Part shown: positions 8,242 to 64,000 of the stretch, one piece after another
Numbering within the stretch: position 1 is the stretch's first letter
Layout of the letters: each line of letters opens with the position of its first letter
Assembly (NCBI RefSeq): GCF_025024155.1
Contig: NW_026251720.1
Span: forward strand, 1-64,000
Direction of reading: 5' to 3'
Source: Gamsiella multidivaricata
Taxonomy: Eukaryota > Mortierellomycota > Mortierellomycetes > Mortierellales > Mortierellaceae
DNA length: 64,000 nucleotides
Notes under the pieces: generated by a model
Told to the model about the DNA's origin: nothing
Seen by the model: only the letters and a program-made list of their open reading frames with translations
The model's database searches: none
Position numbers and translations under genes: made by a program

Positions 8242-9085
8242 TTACGATTCTCCAGGGACCCTTGCTTTACAAGCAACGATCTTGACCTTCTCTGCCGTCA
8301 CAGAGTCGTGGTCGAAGCGGAATGTCGGGTTGGACAGCACAAAGGTCCACACATCGTCCAGAGATCGATAATTGTCCAGATGCGCCTTTTGTTGTTCAGA
8401 TGCACGATGCGATGCATACGCATACAAGTAAACGAAGAACAAAGATATCCTGTGAGTCGCTTGATGCTACAATAACTCTAATCTGTCATGGTCCGAAGCA
8501 TTGCGGTATATACCTTGAAGCTGACTCGGTTCCGGACGCGGGTGCTCAAAGCATCGGCAATACTCATATCAAACTATGAAAAGAAACAAAGAAAATTGGG
8601 GGGGGGGGGGAGGGAATCGCAATTGAAGCCGTTGGTTAGGACTAGATAAAAGCGCTACCGGAGGGCCAGTGGAAAGGTAAGAAGAGCACTCTAACCTGTG
8701 CGAGCACACGCATAGCCAGCTGTGGGTTGATGTGGCCAGACTGAATCAGCTCGTCCAGGGAGTCGATGAGGGCAAGACCGATACTAGGAAGCAGTTAAGG
8801 TAGGTTAAGTGAGGCCGAAGCAGATTATCAGGAAGAGTGGACAAGGCACGATGAGGCTGTATATTTGTGCATCTGCGGTTCTTATACGGGTGCATGTGTG
8901 TACATGTGTATGTGTGTATGTGGGTGGATGGCATGAACATCTAGGGCACAACTGGGGGGGGGGGGGGGGAGGTTTCCTCAAGTCCTCGTTGCTGTTGCCT
9001 TCATCAGGGCTCGCTCCTGCGTGTTTCCTATCCTTTGTGGTTTGTTGTACCTGCTCTTCCTGTAGTGCTCATAGTACTGCGACAT
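8242..9085 (-). CDS. toa2: Transcription initiation factor IIA gamma (small) subunit
   Basis: Predicted exons (complement) 9051..9085, 8696..8783, 8514..8573 and 8242..8385 join to exactly 108 residues, against 109 in human TFIIA gamma. The protein begins MSQYYEHYRKSSIG, continues IDSLDELIQSGHINPQLAMRVLAQFD and RVRNRVSFKG, and ends in DDVWTFVL...VKIVACKAR, the family pattern throughout. It forms the beta-barrel/four-helix TFIIA heterodimer with TOA1 that stabilises TBP on promoters; nuclear. The first coding exon is only 35 nt and was located by the family N-terminus. Introns 1 and 2 each contain a long G tract on the plus strand (C tract in the transcript). Confidence 0.93.
8597..8610. repeat. 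Poly-G tract in TOA2 intron 2
   Basis: A run of about a dozen G on the plus strand, interrupted then by AGGG, within the second intron of the TFIIA gamma gene. In the transcript it is a C run. Low sequence-quality confidence applies to exact length. Confidence 0.7.
8953..8969. repeat. Poly-G tract (about 17 G) in TOA2 intron 1
   Basis: A homopolymer of about 17 G on the plus strand within the first TOA2 intron. It follows a GT-rich stretch (TGTGTGTACATGTG-like) between 8890 and 8935. Confidence 0.75.
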
Positions 9086-9873
9086 GGCAACTCGATGTAA
9101 AAAAAAAGACAAGTATAATAAAATAGAAAGAGAAAGTGAGATGTGGAGTTGCAGGATGGCGAAAGTCCAGTGATTTTGATTCTGCTGATGTCACCGGAGG
9201 AGGGCCGCCCGCATCTGCTGCCATGCAATTGGGCGAGTTCTTCCTCCAGAGCATGCAGAAAAATTTCACAGTTTGGTAAAATAATTTTATTGTGTGTCGT
9301 ATGTTCACCAGAGTCAGTGCCATGCCATATATATTACTATGTACGTTCTTTTAGATACATAGGCGCATATGTATCTGGAATGATGGGCCATTTGTAATCT
9401 GCAGTTGTGAGAAGGCGGGTGAATAGAAAAGGAAAGAGAGAGGAAAAGAGAGAGAGGGAAAAAGCGTCTACAGTCTAGAAACCTATGGCGCCATTATTTT
9501 CTCGTCGGCCCACTCCTGACGCGAAATACATTATCTTGCAGCAGTTTTTCGCCGCCCCAGTCTAGGTGGTTTATGAGGACAGTGATCAATCACTGTTAGA
9601 TACGGATGAAATAATCGATAATCAGTGAGAACACCGCAATTTCTATAGCATAATGCATGAACATACAAACATTTTGGACGTAGATTTCGGGGCCATAAAA
9701 GAAACGTCATTCCGCACATCCTTGACCCCACTCCTTTCCTCATTCACTCCCTTAGCAGCCCTCAAGCACTGTCGCATATTCTTAACGTGAGTCTTGAATG
9801 CTTCTGCAAATGGATACATGTACCAAATTTGATCCTCATTAACTGTCTACTTTGACTTGGCCTTTATCGTACC
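9086..9873. other. Intergenic region holding the unresolved left end of the Fanzor element
   Basis: About 790 bases between the divergent TOA2 start and the first XPG-like codon. It contains purine-rich GAGAGA sequence near 9430-9460 and no recognised gene. The left boundary of the mobile element must lie somewhere here or further left if the XPG-like part belongs to the element. It cannot be placed, because the second copy in this window is cut off before its own left end. Confidence 0.5.
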
Positions 9874-11590
9874 AGATGGGAGTCACTGGGCTACCCAAAG
9901 CTATAAAGACACCAAAGGAACGCTAGCTTATGGTCTGCAGAGCAAGAAAGTTCATGTCGATGTCTTAAGTCTGTACTTCGGATTCTTGCAAACAAGGACC
10001 TTCAAAGCGACGTGTAACAGAGTCGCCAAGGAAGCGAGAGCTGAGGCAACGGCTACGACAACTACCAGCGCATCAGCGGCTTCCATTCTAACAGAAACGA
10101 CGACCTTTCTCGCAGTGCCCACAGCCCCCGTAGTCTCCACAGCCTCAGCAGCGCAAGACGCGCCTTCTGCTGCAGACGCCAGCACTAGCAGGAGAAGCGG
10201 CATCAAGAAGCGCGCCCTGAGTTTCTCCGAGGCTCCATCCAAGCGAGGAAAGGCACGCCCTAGTTATGCGAGCGAGGTACAGGCTGCCGGCGCGCAACAT
10301 CCTGCACTGTTCATTGGCCCTAACAGATGATTGACACCAGACCGACCTGGAGTAACAGAGCAGGTAATTAAATGCGCCAATGGTTTCGTATCAGCATACG
10401 CAGCATAGCAACCAAGTGCTGACACATGTTCTGTTGTCTCATCCCTCGATCCTGCCTCATCTCTAGTCATAGAATTACGGCCACATAGCGCATGATCTCA
10501 ACAAAATCATGTCAAAGCACTTTAGCAAATCGACAACAGTTTTACACTTTGACGGAAAGGCCTCGATACAAAAGTCTCAAGAGCGACAAGATCGGGCCAT
10601 ACCCCTCAGCAACCGGATCAAGGCTCTGGAGGTGCGAGTTGACAACGCCATAGGAAAAAACAGCGGCTCTTTGGGCCCCCTGTACAAGCAATGTCGAAAC
10701 TCGTACAAGACATCCAAGGCAGCGCTGGCAGACATAAGAAATGTGCTGGAGACCTTGGAGTGGCACATCTGCGAATGTCCCTTCCAAGCAGACACGCACA
10801 TTGCTGAGTTGTGTCAAGCTGATAACAACAAAGACGACCTCGCAATCATTACCGCCGACAGTGATATGAAGGTATATCAAGGTGTTAGAGAAATCACTAT
10901 ACCCGTCGGAAAGTACCGAGAGCTTACCACGTACAAGAAGGCTGACCTGCTCGAGTCTCTAGACCTTGCATGTGACCGTGAGCTGTTGCTGGCATCAATC
11001 ATTACTAAGAATGACTACTCCAAGGCACTCCCGTGGCACGGCTTCCAAAGAAATATCAAGATCGTCCGAGAGATGAGGACCGAGACCAGAGTAGGCGATG
11101 GATCGACCATGGACGCGCCAGGATCCAAGACAACTGAGGCTGAGGTTATCAAGGAGCTGATCCAGAAGTATTTACAACGGGCGAGAGGGGGACAAAACAA
11201 GAGTGTGGACGACTACACCCACGCCATTTCGGCTTTCGTTCAAGTGCGTGAAGACTATCTTGACTCCGCTACGCCATCGTGCACGATCCACGAGAAAATA
11301 CGGGGCATACTCCAGAAGCTCGAGAAGTGCAAGCTGCAAAGGAGAAATATGACTCGAGCCTCGCGGACAAATCCTCCAGCCGACACACTCGCCAGCGACA
11401 CTTCTGCAGGCTTGGCGTTTCCTTCCCCTGTCCAACACAGCCTGCAGACGCCTGGACAGCAGACGGTTCTTCAGGCCCGACGCCGTCGCCGCAGACACGA
11501 GAAAGGGAACGCCCAGCAACGGAGAAAGCGACGCCCCAAAGGCAAAGTAAGACGTAAGAAAGTCCGGGAGGCAAAATGGAGACGAAGCAG
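9874..11590 (+). CDS. XPG/FEN1-type flap nuclease region, N-terminal part of a predicted XPG-Fanzor fusion
   Basis: Predicted exons 9874..10276 and 10473..11590. The first codons read MGVTGLPKAIK, an XPG N-terminal signature. The frame then breaks at about 9921, where one base seems to be missing, and resumes as LQSKKVHVDVLSLYF (first catalytic aspartate of the XPG-N fold). An Ala/Thr/Ser-rich linker follows. Exon 2 carries NYGHIAHDLNKIM, VLHFDGKAS (second XPG-N acidic position), then an XPG-I-like block ECPFQADTHIAEL...AIITADSDMKVY with paired aspartates, and TKNDYSKALPWHGF in the position of the FEN1 helix-turn aspartate. The C-terminal part is Lys/Arg-rich. Two possible donors (about 11548 or 11591) both join in frame to the Fanzor exon at 11711. 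No named orthologue is recognised. It could also be a separate adjacent gene. Confidence 0.65.
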
Positions 11591-11710
11591 GTATGATTAT
11601 CGTATGACTTTGTTAGCGAGTTCAAATTCATTACGACCTTTTACAGCTTTGTCGCTTTGGTACAATCATCTTATTGATATTTTTTTTTAATTTTTGGGAT
11701 TGTCACTTAG

Positions 11711-14327
11711 GTACAAGAGCAGGAACGGAGATGCCAACCCTCGTTATTCCCCTCATGTTGTCATGGACGTCAGCCAGTCATGCTCGGTCGACAAGATCAC
11801 ATTAGAAAAGATGTCCATCGAGGAACCGCGCCTGCGGAAGAAGAAGGACGGAAGCATGGATGATAATCCTAAGGCCAGGAGTGAAATCAAGGCGAAACCC
11901 AAGAAGGACGAGGAAAATGATAAAACGGAGAGGCGAGCCGGAGCTAACCTGACTAAGCGCCTGTTCGGAGAGGCTTTCAAGACTGCCACAATGACTGCAG
12001 GGTCGATCACAGGATGCCTGCATCGCGCCACGAAGCTGAACGTAGTCCAGACCAAGATCGTCGCGGAACGCATCAGCGAGACGGCCCGCATCATGAGCCA
12101 AACTCGTATCCTCGTGTTTAAAGCGCTCGAACTTTTTCTCTACAAGGAGGTCAGCACTGCCACCATATCCAATTCAGATCAAGCGCGTTCGGCACCAGAC
12201 CAGAACTTGGGCACTGATGTCAATCAAGCGAGTGCTCCGAAAGTCCAGCACAAGGAGGAAAAGAACGCGGACCCACTTGATCTCATTCTGCACAAGGCAC
12301 ATGGAGAAACTATCATCAGAAGTCTGATCTCTTTGATTCTGAATGGTCCAGTAGCACCCCGCGGGAGACTACCTAAAGACTCGGCGGCAATTCAGGCGAA
12401 AACAATTGCGCGCTCGATTTATGACGATTTCCTGAGCGTTCTTTCAGATTGCGTACCGACAAAGGACTGCCCTGAGCGTCATCCAGGCGGAACTGGCGGT
12501 GGAGGTCCGGACCGCGGTTCGGGAACATTCCCAGAGACTGCCCAAGTTCATTGTGAACAAGGTAACATTTCCACTGTCCAGAACAAGATCTATCTCGCGT
12601 CGATTTGCTTTTCCACTGTGAACTTACGTTTATTTTTTGTTTCTATTAGCTGAAGCGTGCTCGTTTCTTCACGATGATATACCTCCAGTTGAGGATGACG
12701 AGAGCTCCGACGGCGATAAACAGAAAGACAAGGTGTCATTTAAGAAGGGGCACATCCAAACTTGGTGGAGGTACTTTCTCCGTATGCCGTCGGACTTGCG
12801 TCCTATTTTCTGTCCAGTGTCGAAGTTGGGAGACTCTTTCATCTTGTGCTCTGAGGCTGCCATTCTTTCACTTCTTTGGGGCAATCCAAATTCAAAGACG
12901 CACCCTACACGGCATATCATGGAAACTCAAGTCTGCTCTTCCGAGACGGCCCACGAACTTGCATCAGAGAAATATGGGGAGCTTTTCCGACAATTGTTTA
13001 TCGGAGACAAGGTCGAGATCAAGGCGGATCCCCTCAAGAACCAGACTTCATATGGCAAGAAAACAACGACCATGAACCGATTGCTGAAGGACCATCCAAA
13101 CACATACGGCCAAGCTGCACTCGATGGGTACATGAAGAGAGTCTTTTCAAATCACAAGGCTAGGAAACAAGCAGCTGCCGAAGGCACGGAGCCCCCCGTG
13201 CCCCCCGATCTCCCAAGCAATGACAGCGTTAAGGAGTACTATGCCATCAGCAATATGATGAGAACAGACGGAGTCCAGCTCCACCTAATGGCATTTGACA
13301 TCCAACGACGTTGGCAGTCATCCAAATTTAAGGCGCGGATCCCGGAGATTACATCGCGATTTCCTAATAAAGGGTCTCTCGCAAAGGCTTTCGATCAAGA
13401 CCTCCAGAATGTTGTGGGGGTGGGGGTGGACCCCGGTGAAGTAATTTCAGCATCATTTTGTGCGCTGGACCCCCGAAAACCGAACCAGGTCACGAACCTG
13501 CCTATCAGACGCTCCGCTCTCTACAGTCCCAACTTGTCATTCAGAGCCACGCTGGAGGCCAAAAAACGCGAACGGGCCACTGTCACAATCAAAGACGATG
13601 CAGGATTGAGTAGGCACATATGCGAGACGCCTAGCATATTGGAATTGGAAGCCTCGCTACCGTTGTCGTCGTTCGTAAGCATGGGAGAACACCGGCATGG
13701 CCTCCGACAGTTCAGCTATGTCCTACAACCACTTTGCGATTTTTACGGATCCCGTTCGATGAAAAAAAAAGCTGTGGGAGCTCAAAAAGACGAACCGGGC
13801 AGAGAAGGATCATGCCGTGCATGGGGCATTGCGAACTGTGGACCCACAAAGCGGGATGCATACTGGGCCAACGAGACCGGCGATGTTTGTATACGGGCCA
13901 GGAAAGTTCAACACCCATACCAAGCTGGCATCGCTACACGAGAGCTTCAAGGGGTATTTTTTTCACAAGGTATGTTGTTTTAAAGATATTCGCTATATTC
14001 GTTGCGATTTGCTTGTTTTCAGCCTAGTATCGATACTGATGCCATGTTTCCGCATGCCATTGCACTACATAGGCAAACAGCCTCGGGTACACCGCCGTTT
14101 GTTCGGATGAGTATCTCACGTCATCGAAATGCCCAAGCTGTGTACGACAAAACAAGGACCGAAGAATGGCAAAGCCAGCGAATCGGGCGTTCGTCTGCCT
14201 TGAGGATGGGTGCCAGAGATGGCTAGACAGAGACTGCGTGGGCGCTCAGAATTTGGCTAATATTGGCCTCGAATGGATCAGTAGCCTGTCTCGCCCAGAG
14301 CCCCTTCGCCGACCCCAGCAAGAATAA
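11711..14327 (+). CDS. Fanzor protein (TnpB/IS605 OrfB-like RNA-guided nuclease homologue), frame-disrupted
   Basis: Predicted exons 11711..12561, 12650..13969 and 14073..14327. RuvC-I is GVGVDPGEVISA (catalytic Asp). A FYGSRSMKK...WELKKTNRAEKD helix and PAMFVYGPGKFNTHTKLASLH follow, equivalent to the Fanzor segment before the zinc finger. Next come LGYTAVCSDEYLTSSKCPSC, then a second cysteine pair in FVCLEDGC and RuvC-III WLDRDCVGAQNLANIG. This is the OrfB zinc-ribbon/RuvC-III architecture. The N-terminal half is helical and charged, as in fungal Fanzors. The frame is broken three times by apparent single-base indels: near 12468, near 12670, and in an A9 run at 13762-13770. Other alternatives, such as a TnpB-like host gene, are unlikely given the second near-identical copy. 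Known biology (Fanzor as fRNA-guided DNA endonuclease) is from the family; activity of this copy is doubtful. Confidence 0.82.
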
Positions 14328-14358
14328 CTGTACTGGCCGTATCAGTTAAAATTTATCC
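14328..14358 (+). ncRNA. Candidate Fanzor guide-RNA (fRNA/omega RNA) scaffold tail, left part
   Basis: About 31 bases after the stop codon are shared with the second copy although they do not code in this copy. In TnpB/Fanzor systems the guide RNA overlaps the 3' end of the gene and the element's right end. By that analogy this stretch together with 14727-14752 would form the end of the scaffold, and the guide would start at 14753. This is inference from position and conservation only; no fold was computed. Confidence 0.35.
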
Positions 14359-14360
14359 TA

Positions 14361-14724
14361 CAGTCCTTTTTGTGAAATAGCCGATCTTTCATAGTAAAAG
14401 TTGGGCTATTTCGACTAAATTGAAATACATACACGAGGCTATTCATTTTTTGTGATGGCTGAAATACGTTATTTCCCTGCAATCTTTACGCTCATGACTA
14501 CATCAAAACGCGTGTCATTCTCACTCTCACTTTGCTTGGAGATGAGAACGCGAGCTACCGAAAAACAGCACGGTACTTGATTCGTAAATCTTACTAGAAA
14601 TAAACTCATCATGTGACCTCTTAAATCCTTGCAAAAAAATGAATAGCCTCGTGTATATATTTCATTTCAGTCGAAATAGCCCAACTTTTACTATGCAAGT
14701 TCGGCTATTTCACAAAAAGGACTG
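14361..14724. mobile_element. Tc1/mariner-type MITE, 364 bp, TA target duplication, long terminal inverted repeats
   Basis: Ends are CAGTCCTTTTTGTGAAATAG and its reverse complement at 14705-14724. The inverted repeats continue with few mismatches for about 95 bp on each side (14361-14455 and 14630-14724). Both flanks are TA (14359-14360, 14725-14726). The second Fanzor copy has a single TA at the same position, which proves insertion. No open frame spans the interior, so it is non-autonomous. Confidence 0.95.
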
Positions 14725-14726
14725 TA

Positions 14727-14752
14727 GGTGGCTGTCTCTCTTTCCAGTTGAG
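14727..14752 (+). ncRNA. Candidate Fanzor right-end/scaffold segment, right part
   Basis: 26 bases ending CCAGTTGAG are shared with the second copy with two substitutions; similarity stops abruptly after this. It is the inferred right end of the element and, by analogy with IS605/TnpB, the junction between guide-RNA scaffold and guide. The MITE separates it from the rest of the tail. Confidence 0.4.
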
Positions 14753-63661: not shown

Positions 63662-63804
63662 GCTTGTGGGATGTGTGGAATCAAGCGGGGTGGAGGGAAG
63701 ATGAAGAGTGAAGAGTGGAGAGTGGAGAGTGGGGAGTAGAGAGTGGGGAGACGGATCTGAAGGAGAAGACAGGCGGGGTTGACGGGGTAAAATCCGAATA
63801 TCCC
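63662..63804. promoter_or_regulatory. PRS5 upstream stretch up to the Fanzor copy 2 stop
   Basis: About 140 bases with repeated GAGAGTGGAGAG-type units (63700-63750) between the PRS5-type start and the inserted element. Any promoter must be compact or include element sequence. Confidence 0.4.
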
Positions 63805-64000
63805 TTAGACCGTCTCAACTGGAGGGAGAGACAGCCACCTAGGATAAATTTTAACTGATACGGCCAGTACATGTACAGTTATTCGGCGGAGGGGCTCTGG
63901 GCGAGACAGGCTACTGATCCATTCGAGGCCAATATTAGCCAAATTCTGAGCGCCCACGCAGTCCCTGTCTAGCCATCTCTGGCACCCATCCTCAAGGCAG
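63805..64000 (-). CDS. Fanzor copy 2, C-terminal end (cut off by window edge)
   Basis: The minus-strand sequence at the right edge is nearly identical to codons of copy 1 from CLEDGC through RuvC-III WLDRDCVGAQNLANIG; two substitutions were counted in about 135 aligned coding bases. An 11-base deletion relative to copy 1 just before its stop, plus 6 extra bases in a short GTAC-type repeat, changes the C-terminus. The frame here continues through the element's right end to a stop at 63805-63807. Without the MITE, it gives the ancestral configuration of the tail. The remaining part lies outside the window. Confidence 0.85.
   Translation of the reverse strand, partial: CLEDGCQRWLDRDCVGAQNLANIGLEWISSLSRPEPLRRITVHVLAVSVKIYPRWLSLPPVETV
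63814..64000 (-). mobile_element. Fanzor element copy 2, right end, inverted relative to copy 1
   Basis: Similarity to copy 1 starts at 63814 (CTCAACT on the plus strand) and runs to the window edge. It carries one TA where copy 1 holds the MITE. The element continues beyond position 64000. Confidence 0.85.

Follow-up and report, generated by a model that had tools for sequence, protein, structure and literature searches.

A predicted XPG–Fanzor fusion in mobile genes of Gamsiella multidivaricata and related fungi

Academ transposons, as generally described, are eukaryotic mobile elements that encode an XPG-type nuclease domain together with a DDE transposase. The 5′ nucleases T5exo and EXO1 belong to the FEN superfamily. 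Both have been combined by engineers with RNA-guided nucleases, in T5exo–ErCas12a and in an EXO1-based Cas9 editor (PMC8945719, PMC11107001). The Fanzor1 protein SpuFz1 of Spizellomyces punctatus is described, in the accessible text, with REC, WED, RuvC and NUC domains only, and its locus, about 2.1 kb long and with inverted repeats of 30 nt, has a single open reading frame (PMC10432273). Here we describe a family of mobile genes in which a Fanzor is preceded by an XPG nuclease of about 350 residues. One copy lies at 9876–14327 on the plus strand of a 64,000-nt stretch of Gamsiella multidivaricata DNA (contig NW_026251720.1, positions 1–64,000), which we call the window. Sequence comparisons make it almost certain that the family, in which an XPG/FEN1/EXO1-type nuclease and a Fanzor would form one protein, is real. 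Like Academ, it carries an XPG-type nuclease on a mobile element, but the partner is a Fanzor and not a DDE transposase. It also resembles the engineered editors in combining a 5′ nuclease with an RNA-guided nuclease; those are man-made, whereas the XPG–Fanzor is evolved and inherited.

Gene structure and the junction between the halves

Every XPG and Fanzor motif named in the original prediction lies on the plus strand in the predicted order: MGVTGL (ATG at 9876), VHVDV, VLHFDGK, ADSDMKVY and TKNDY, followed by GVDPGE, a zinc ribbon and LDRDCVGAQN. A five-exon model of the window copy, all on this strand, was derived from sister copies. Exon 1 (9876–10363), a stretch that is open in sister copies L011 and L018, carries the XPG N-region with MGVTGL and KKVHVDV. 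Intron 1 (10364–10466) falls within the XPG part and is bounded by GT...AG in an 11-copy alignment, with the donor GAGCAG/GTAATT and the acceptor CTCTAG, or TCACAG just beyond. Exon 2 (10467–11590) is an open frame for the remaining XPG nuclease (VLHFDGK, QAD, ITADSDM, ITKNDY) and a basic linker, and a phase-2 junction intron (11591–11710) leads from the XPG frame into the Fanzor frame. Exon 3 (11711–12561) encodes the N-terminal part of the Fanzor, exon 4 (12650–13969) contains RuvC-I, with GVDPGE at 13423–13440, and exon 5 (14073–14327) reads DEYLTSSKCPSC...LDRD, comprising an alternative RuvC-II glutamate, the zinc ribbon, RuvC-III and the stop codon. The intervening introns 3 (12562–12649) and 4 (13970–14072) are in phase 0 where frames are intact, as they are in the copy L078.

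The two sites originally predicted to join the halves are borne out by the alignment. All 11 copies, that of the window among them, have the donor GTATGA at 11591, and 8 of the 11 preserve the frame at the acceptor ending at 11710. A second donor suggested near 11548 occurs in 2 of 11 and was ruled out. The same arrangement recurs in a second family, B (L077 and L078), which is only 22% (XPG) and 24% (Fanzor) identical to family A, that of the window. In family B the XPG exon is open into a phase-2 intron, the Fanzor continues in frame on the other side, and phase-0 introns follow, so that corresponding introns of the two families have identical phases (2, 0, 0). L078 can be read as 1,166 residues with one internal stop.

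The window copy itself is decayed and does not encode an intact fusion. Exon 1 has lost 1 bp near 9906 and contains a stop near 10328, and frame breaks relative to sister copies lie near 12470 in exon 3 and near 12670 and 13765 in exon 4; the deletion is common to one of ten other copies, the second copy on the same contig. The fusion originally predicted here is supported for the family and fails for the window copy, whose decay had been missed.

No Pfam XPG model recognises the XPG exons of the window by themselves; there is only a sub-threshold match to PF02739 (E = 0.0066). Their XPG identity rests on the family. A profile built from five relatives finds FEN1 (E = 4e-8 and 7e-8), RAD2, XPG and EXO1, and the predicted structures of two relatives match the EXO1/FEN1 (XPG) fold. 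Profiles were needed, as the Mortierella alpina relative P0005 alone found no match among PDB sequences. The family resembles known XPG/FEN1/EXO1 nucleases in the order of N- and I-regions, in the modelled fold and in the seven acidic metal-binding positions, mapped through an alignment to human FEN1. It differs from them in its 14–19% identity to solved members, its aspartate at the place of E160, its residence on a multi-copy mobile gene, fused to a Fanzor, and, in the window family, an insert that separates the N region from the I region.

On the Fanzor side, the last exon of the window matches the Cas12f1-like TNB domain PF07282 over the Pfam cut-off (E = 1.3e-6). RuvC-I and the alternative RuvC-II were defined as in PMC10711439, where DPG at RuvC-I is given as near exclusive in Fanzors. 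RuvC-I reads GVDPGE in the window and in the copy on contig C1, G[IM]DPGE in L078 and the proteins P0005, P0007, P0008 and P0010 of other fungi, and GIEPGE in P0006. The full pattern of a glutamate six residues ahead of the zinc ribbon, then an aspartate past the second cysteine pair, is found in 5 of 15 rows (L078, P0005, P0006, P0010 and P0018), most others ending or being damaged earlier. In four proteins of the clade called C below (P0013, P0016, P0018 and P0019), DLG replaces DPG, and P0018 retains the alternative glutamate. Features shared with SpuFz1 are the DPG of RuvC-I, the glutamate six residues before the zinc ribbon and the RuvC-III aspartate, together with the multi-copy state in a fungal mobile element; the XPG nuclease and the DLG of the four clade-C proteins set the family apart. 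Among solved proteins, Fanzor profile A3 matches TnpB-like L79 (9b0l) with E = 6.5e-4 and SpuFz1 (8gkh) with only E = 0.048. The Fanzor half is mostly of low confidence in two fold models, and no Fanzor or TnpB chain appears among the best 50 matches listed for each of three fold searches, where the XPG half filled the lists.

Copies in the Gamsiella genome and relatives in other fungi

In the 37.5-Mb genome, the window XPG exon matches 64 places and the Fanzor exon 55, their own places counted, and the two keep the same order at the loci common to both. The arrangement is not due to chance, since ten further near copies (85–94% protein identity) and dozens of distant ones have it as well. For a genome-wide count we used the 104 of 140 zinc-ribbon places that pass the Pfam cut-off, two of them only together with neighbours, and 106 XPG loci merged from 159 XPG places among the matches listed; at least two weak XPG places (C89 and C118:177231) were omitted. 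At 56 of the 104 Fanzor places, an XPG locus is found no more than 6.5 kb upstream on the same strand, against 4 downstream on the same strand and 3 and 3 on the opposite strand, and the distance from XPG to zinc ribbon is 2.7–3.3 kb in 41 of the 56 pairs. The view of a single locus would allow a Fanzor element to lie beside an XPG gene of the host in the window by accident, but the order and spacing recur at dozens of loci, which reduces the likelihood of this to practically nothing, and the pairing count already refutes it. The halves thus occur together at dozens of loci, and not as Fanzors consistently lacking an XPG gene that stays at one host locus. With 104 such zinc-ribbon places in 37.5 Mb, this is a Fanzor-rich fungal genome.

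Three protein searches, two of which scored the 8,000 candidates sharing most words with the query, found 15 related proteins in other fungi, from Mortierella, Podila, Linnemannia, Dissophora, Actinomortierella and Benniella, all of which we take to be genera of Mortierellaceae. Long models with both halves, which the original prediction had proposed looking for, are present among them: P0005 (M. alpina, 1,502 aa), P0010 (Podila verticillata, 1,260 aa) and P0013 (Actinomortierella ambigua, 1,310 aa, named 'Rad2 nuclease' at its source). Some of the remaining proteins are partial or fragments. In the 14 proteins scanned (P0011 was left out), Pfam matches over the cut-off are TNB in P0005, P0006, P0010 and P0018, and XPG_I in P0014. 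Sequence comparison finds the catalytic residues of both nucleases in the complete relatives. XPG–Fanzor proteins may extend beyond these fungi; of 60 pattern-matching stretches in viral contigs, none encodes a relative of profile A3, and P0009 has no match in phage records.

The two halves have diverged in parallel. The distance between two sequences in the XPG half correlates with that in the Fanzor half at r = 0.88 over 15 rows (105 pairs), a value reached in none of 5,000 permutations; the rows were 13 of the 15 database proteins and two from Gamsiella, with P0011 (a fragment) and P0015 (a model without its middle) omitted. Identity tables suggest three clades: A, the window family; B, comprising family B and proteins of M. 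alpina, M. claussenii, M. antarctica and P. verticillata; and C, with P0009, P0012, P0013, P0014 and P0016–P0019. Five clade-C loci of Gamsiella (L005, L006, L008, L029 and L035) have XPG frames followed by Fanzor-type frames, as judged from frames only. From these tables, the simplest reading would be one old fusion and then joint descent of its halves.

Conserved linkage, the phase-2 junction intron shared by two diverged families, the single annotated proteins elsewhere and the congruent divergence of the halves together support a fusion that recurs across relatives. Two separate genes could instead travel together in one element and make no fusion protein. An intron does separate XPG from Fanzor in both families modelled, and the halves are known here from DNA sequence and predicted proteins alone. 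We regard this arrangement as very improbable, given that diverged families have an identical phase at the junction, that its donor is conserved in 11 of 11 copies, and that other species have single predicted proteins.

Ends and flanks of the element

Near copies have about 5 kb in common. The 5′ region of the element (9265–9875, plus strand) is common to near copies, with an exact left end that varies: homology to the copies on C1, C108 and C134 starts at window position 9265–9268, and other copies start further in. A (GTA)CAGAGTAAGGGATA stretch precedes the copies on C1, C113, C134 and C142, partly adjoining a piggyBac-like element. Judged by eye, the C1 copy (L083) lies where a protein-coding stretch of several exons ends, and GTACAGAGTAAGGGATAG is found where the two meet.

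The right end is better defined. A conserved noncoding end of about 80 nt follows the stop codon and terminates in AAGGGATA in family A and related copies; 15 listed right ends have this terminus with differing flanks, of which that on C38 is doubtful and may be chance, and the right end of family B is different. In the window, this sequence is split into a first part (14328–14360, plus strand), a candidate scaffold for an omega-RNA (ωRNA), and the rest (14727–14752, plus strand), which lacks the terminal AAGGGATA present in other copies. Between them lies a separate, palindromic miniature inverted-repeat transposable element (14361–14724, 364 bp; CAGTCC...GGACTG, TA on both sides) with 95-nt inverted arms that are 95% complementary. 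It has related copies at several other places and is absent from this site in 11 other right ends compared. Two hairpins are predicted for the conserved end in two close copies (z = –2.9 and –3.1 against simple shuffles). In place and length this end resembles the ωRNA of SpuFz1, which is reported to lie between the stop codon and the right end, so that both elements have a conserved noncoding stretch there (PMC10432273).

No transposase was recognised among the listed reading frames of the element, which were not scanned one by one. This would suit an alternative in which the element is mobilised by its own XPG half, a nuclease that would excise or nick it at structured ends in place of a transposase, with the Fanzor restoring a copy at the emptied site. 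FEN1-type enzymes, on the other hand, have branched DNA as their substrate and are not known to act as transposases. Nor could a terminal inverted repeat be established, and left ends vary among copies. A helper acting in trans is also possible, since a piggyBac-like transposase adjoins the copy on C113. Even with the parallel of the Spizellomyces Fanzor elements, in which no transposase was found within the repeats either, according to PMC10432273, we consider a mobilising role unlikely.

The piggyBac-like transposase end, with a zinc finger, lies directly upstream of the C113 copy, L012 (PF13843, E = 1.1e-5; PF13842, E = 3.3e-5), and its end sequence is also near copies on C19, C108 and C134. 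Beside the window copy is a host gene for the TFIIA gamma subunit (8645–8794, minus strand; PF02268, E = 4.6e-12), and at 15.2–16.8 kb a phosphoribosyl pyrophosphate synthetase-like gene was seen by eye only, a piece of it giving no Pfam match. A second copy (L010/L040 on C24) lies in opposite orientation about 50 kb away; its 3′ end is at 63799–64000 on the minus strand, and the rest lies past the window, as far as about 68.7 kb. The upstream part of L010 contains an ArfGap gene (PF01412, E = 1.9e-21). The two copies differ by roughly 2–6% per 300-bp step from 10,101 to 11,600 and at only four places between 11,805 and 14,300. Because the latter stretch is near-identical although the rest differs more, recent gene conversion between the two inverted copies is likely.

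A proposed dual-nuclease homing mechanism

Overall, the window copy is probably best explained as a decayed member of an old Mortierella-type mobile gene family that encodes an XPG–Fanzor fusion and works by a guided cut with XPG processing. The role at R-loops, nicks or flaps put forward in the original prediction is a reasonable hypothesis. In our scheme, an ωRNA from the conserved 3′ end and flanking DNA would guide the Fanzor half, which would open an R-loop and cut a site without the element. The tethered XPG half would work on the sites used by its relatives, namely the flank of the R-loop and 5′ ends, and would cut or trim the second strand or resect 5′ ends as EXO1 does. Repair of the break would then take the other allele or another copy as the template from which the element is copied, and would not use end joining. 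As a whole, this sequence of guided cut, end or R-loop processing and repair by copying is offered tentatively.

Second-strand cutting or 5′ resection is favoured for three reasons. A Fanzor, like Cas12, must cut both R-loop strands with a single RuvC site. Purified XPG is reported to have cleaved an R-loop at its 3′ flank, an asymmetry linked to target-strand cutting by Cas12a (PMC7286691). Engineers, finally, pair FEN-family nucleases with Cas enzymes, and besides T5exo–ErCas12a, the EXO1-based Cas9 editor is reported to increase homology-directed repair (PMC8945719, PMC11107001). Alternatively, the XPG half might act on the guide complex, maturing or removing its RNA or flaps, as in trimming the ωRNA end or clearing the R-loop after cutting. 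FEN1 relatives do cut 5′ flaps, yet neither TnpB nor the known Fanzors need a helper of this kind. Processing of its own mRNA is reported for TnpB, which lends this idea some precedent (PMC10278001), but no measurement in this analysis favours it, and we think it quite improbable.

Several observations weigh against a guided-cut, XPG-processing fusion. The fusion is known from sequence alone, each of the four Gamsiella copies read through (window, C1, L077 and L078) has at least one lesion, and the database fusion proteins are automated gene models, several of them partial, that might merge neighbouring genes. No XPG was detected upstream of 48 of the 104 Fanzor places, and at least two of these (C111 and C19) have a contig end no more than about 3 kb away on the expected XPG side. 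At C105, the unpaired place that was read, the expected XPG stretch has no similarity to the family; therefore truncated or XPG-less copies exist. Likewise, 50 of the 106 XPG loci have no zinc ribbon over the cut-off downstream, several of these being known near copies whose zinc ribbon scores under it. The window family has a glutamine at the place of E158. The guide RNA is known only as a candidate from the conserved 3′ end, whose fold is weaker or absent in three diverged copies (z = –1.9, –1.1 and 0.2), and comparison of copies established neither a left end, terminal inverted repeats, a target duplication nor a target site.

In the searchable literature, subscription papers not covered, we found no publication on Fanzor with XPG or Fanzor with Mortierella, in keeping with the original prediction, which knew of no described pair. 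TnpB with XPG returned only work on Cas12a R-loops (PMC7286691), TnpB with 'flap endonuclease' returned other topics as judged by titles and the starts of abstracts, and searches on fused fungal Fanzors and on Mortierellaceae transposable elements or TnpB gave no title on XPG–Fanzor among the matches listed; searches on Academ brought up nothing of use. Fanzors themselves are known; what is new, as far as these searches show, is a Fanzor with this old-established domain architecture.

A Fanzor that carries its own nuclease for processing DNA ends or R-loops points to repair choice as a step under selection in the spread of the element, an idea that is testable by point mutants in each half. 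The family would be a natural counterpart of engineered exonuclease–nuclease editors, and M. alpina and Podila verticillata offer complete candidates for study. It is possible, if short of probable, that the fusion is a dual-nuclease RNA-guided enzyme whose Fanzor places an EXO1/FEN1-type nuclease at a programmed site and so biases repair towards homology-directed copying. If true, the element would be a built-in homing machine that has spread through Mortierella-type fungi, with dozens of copies in this genome.

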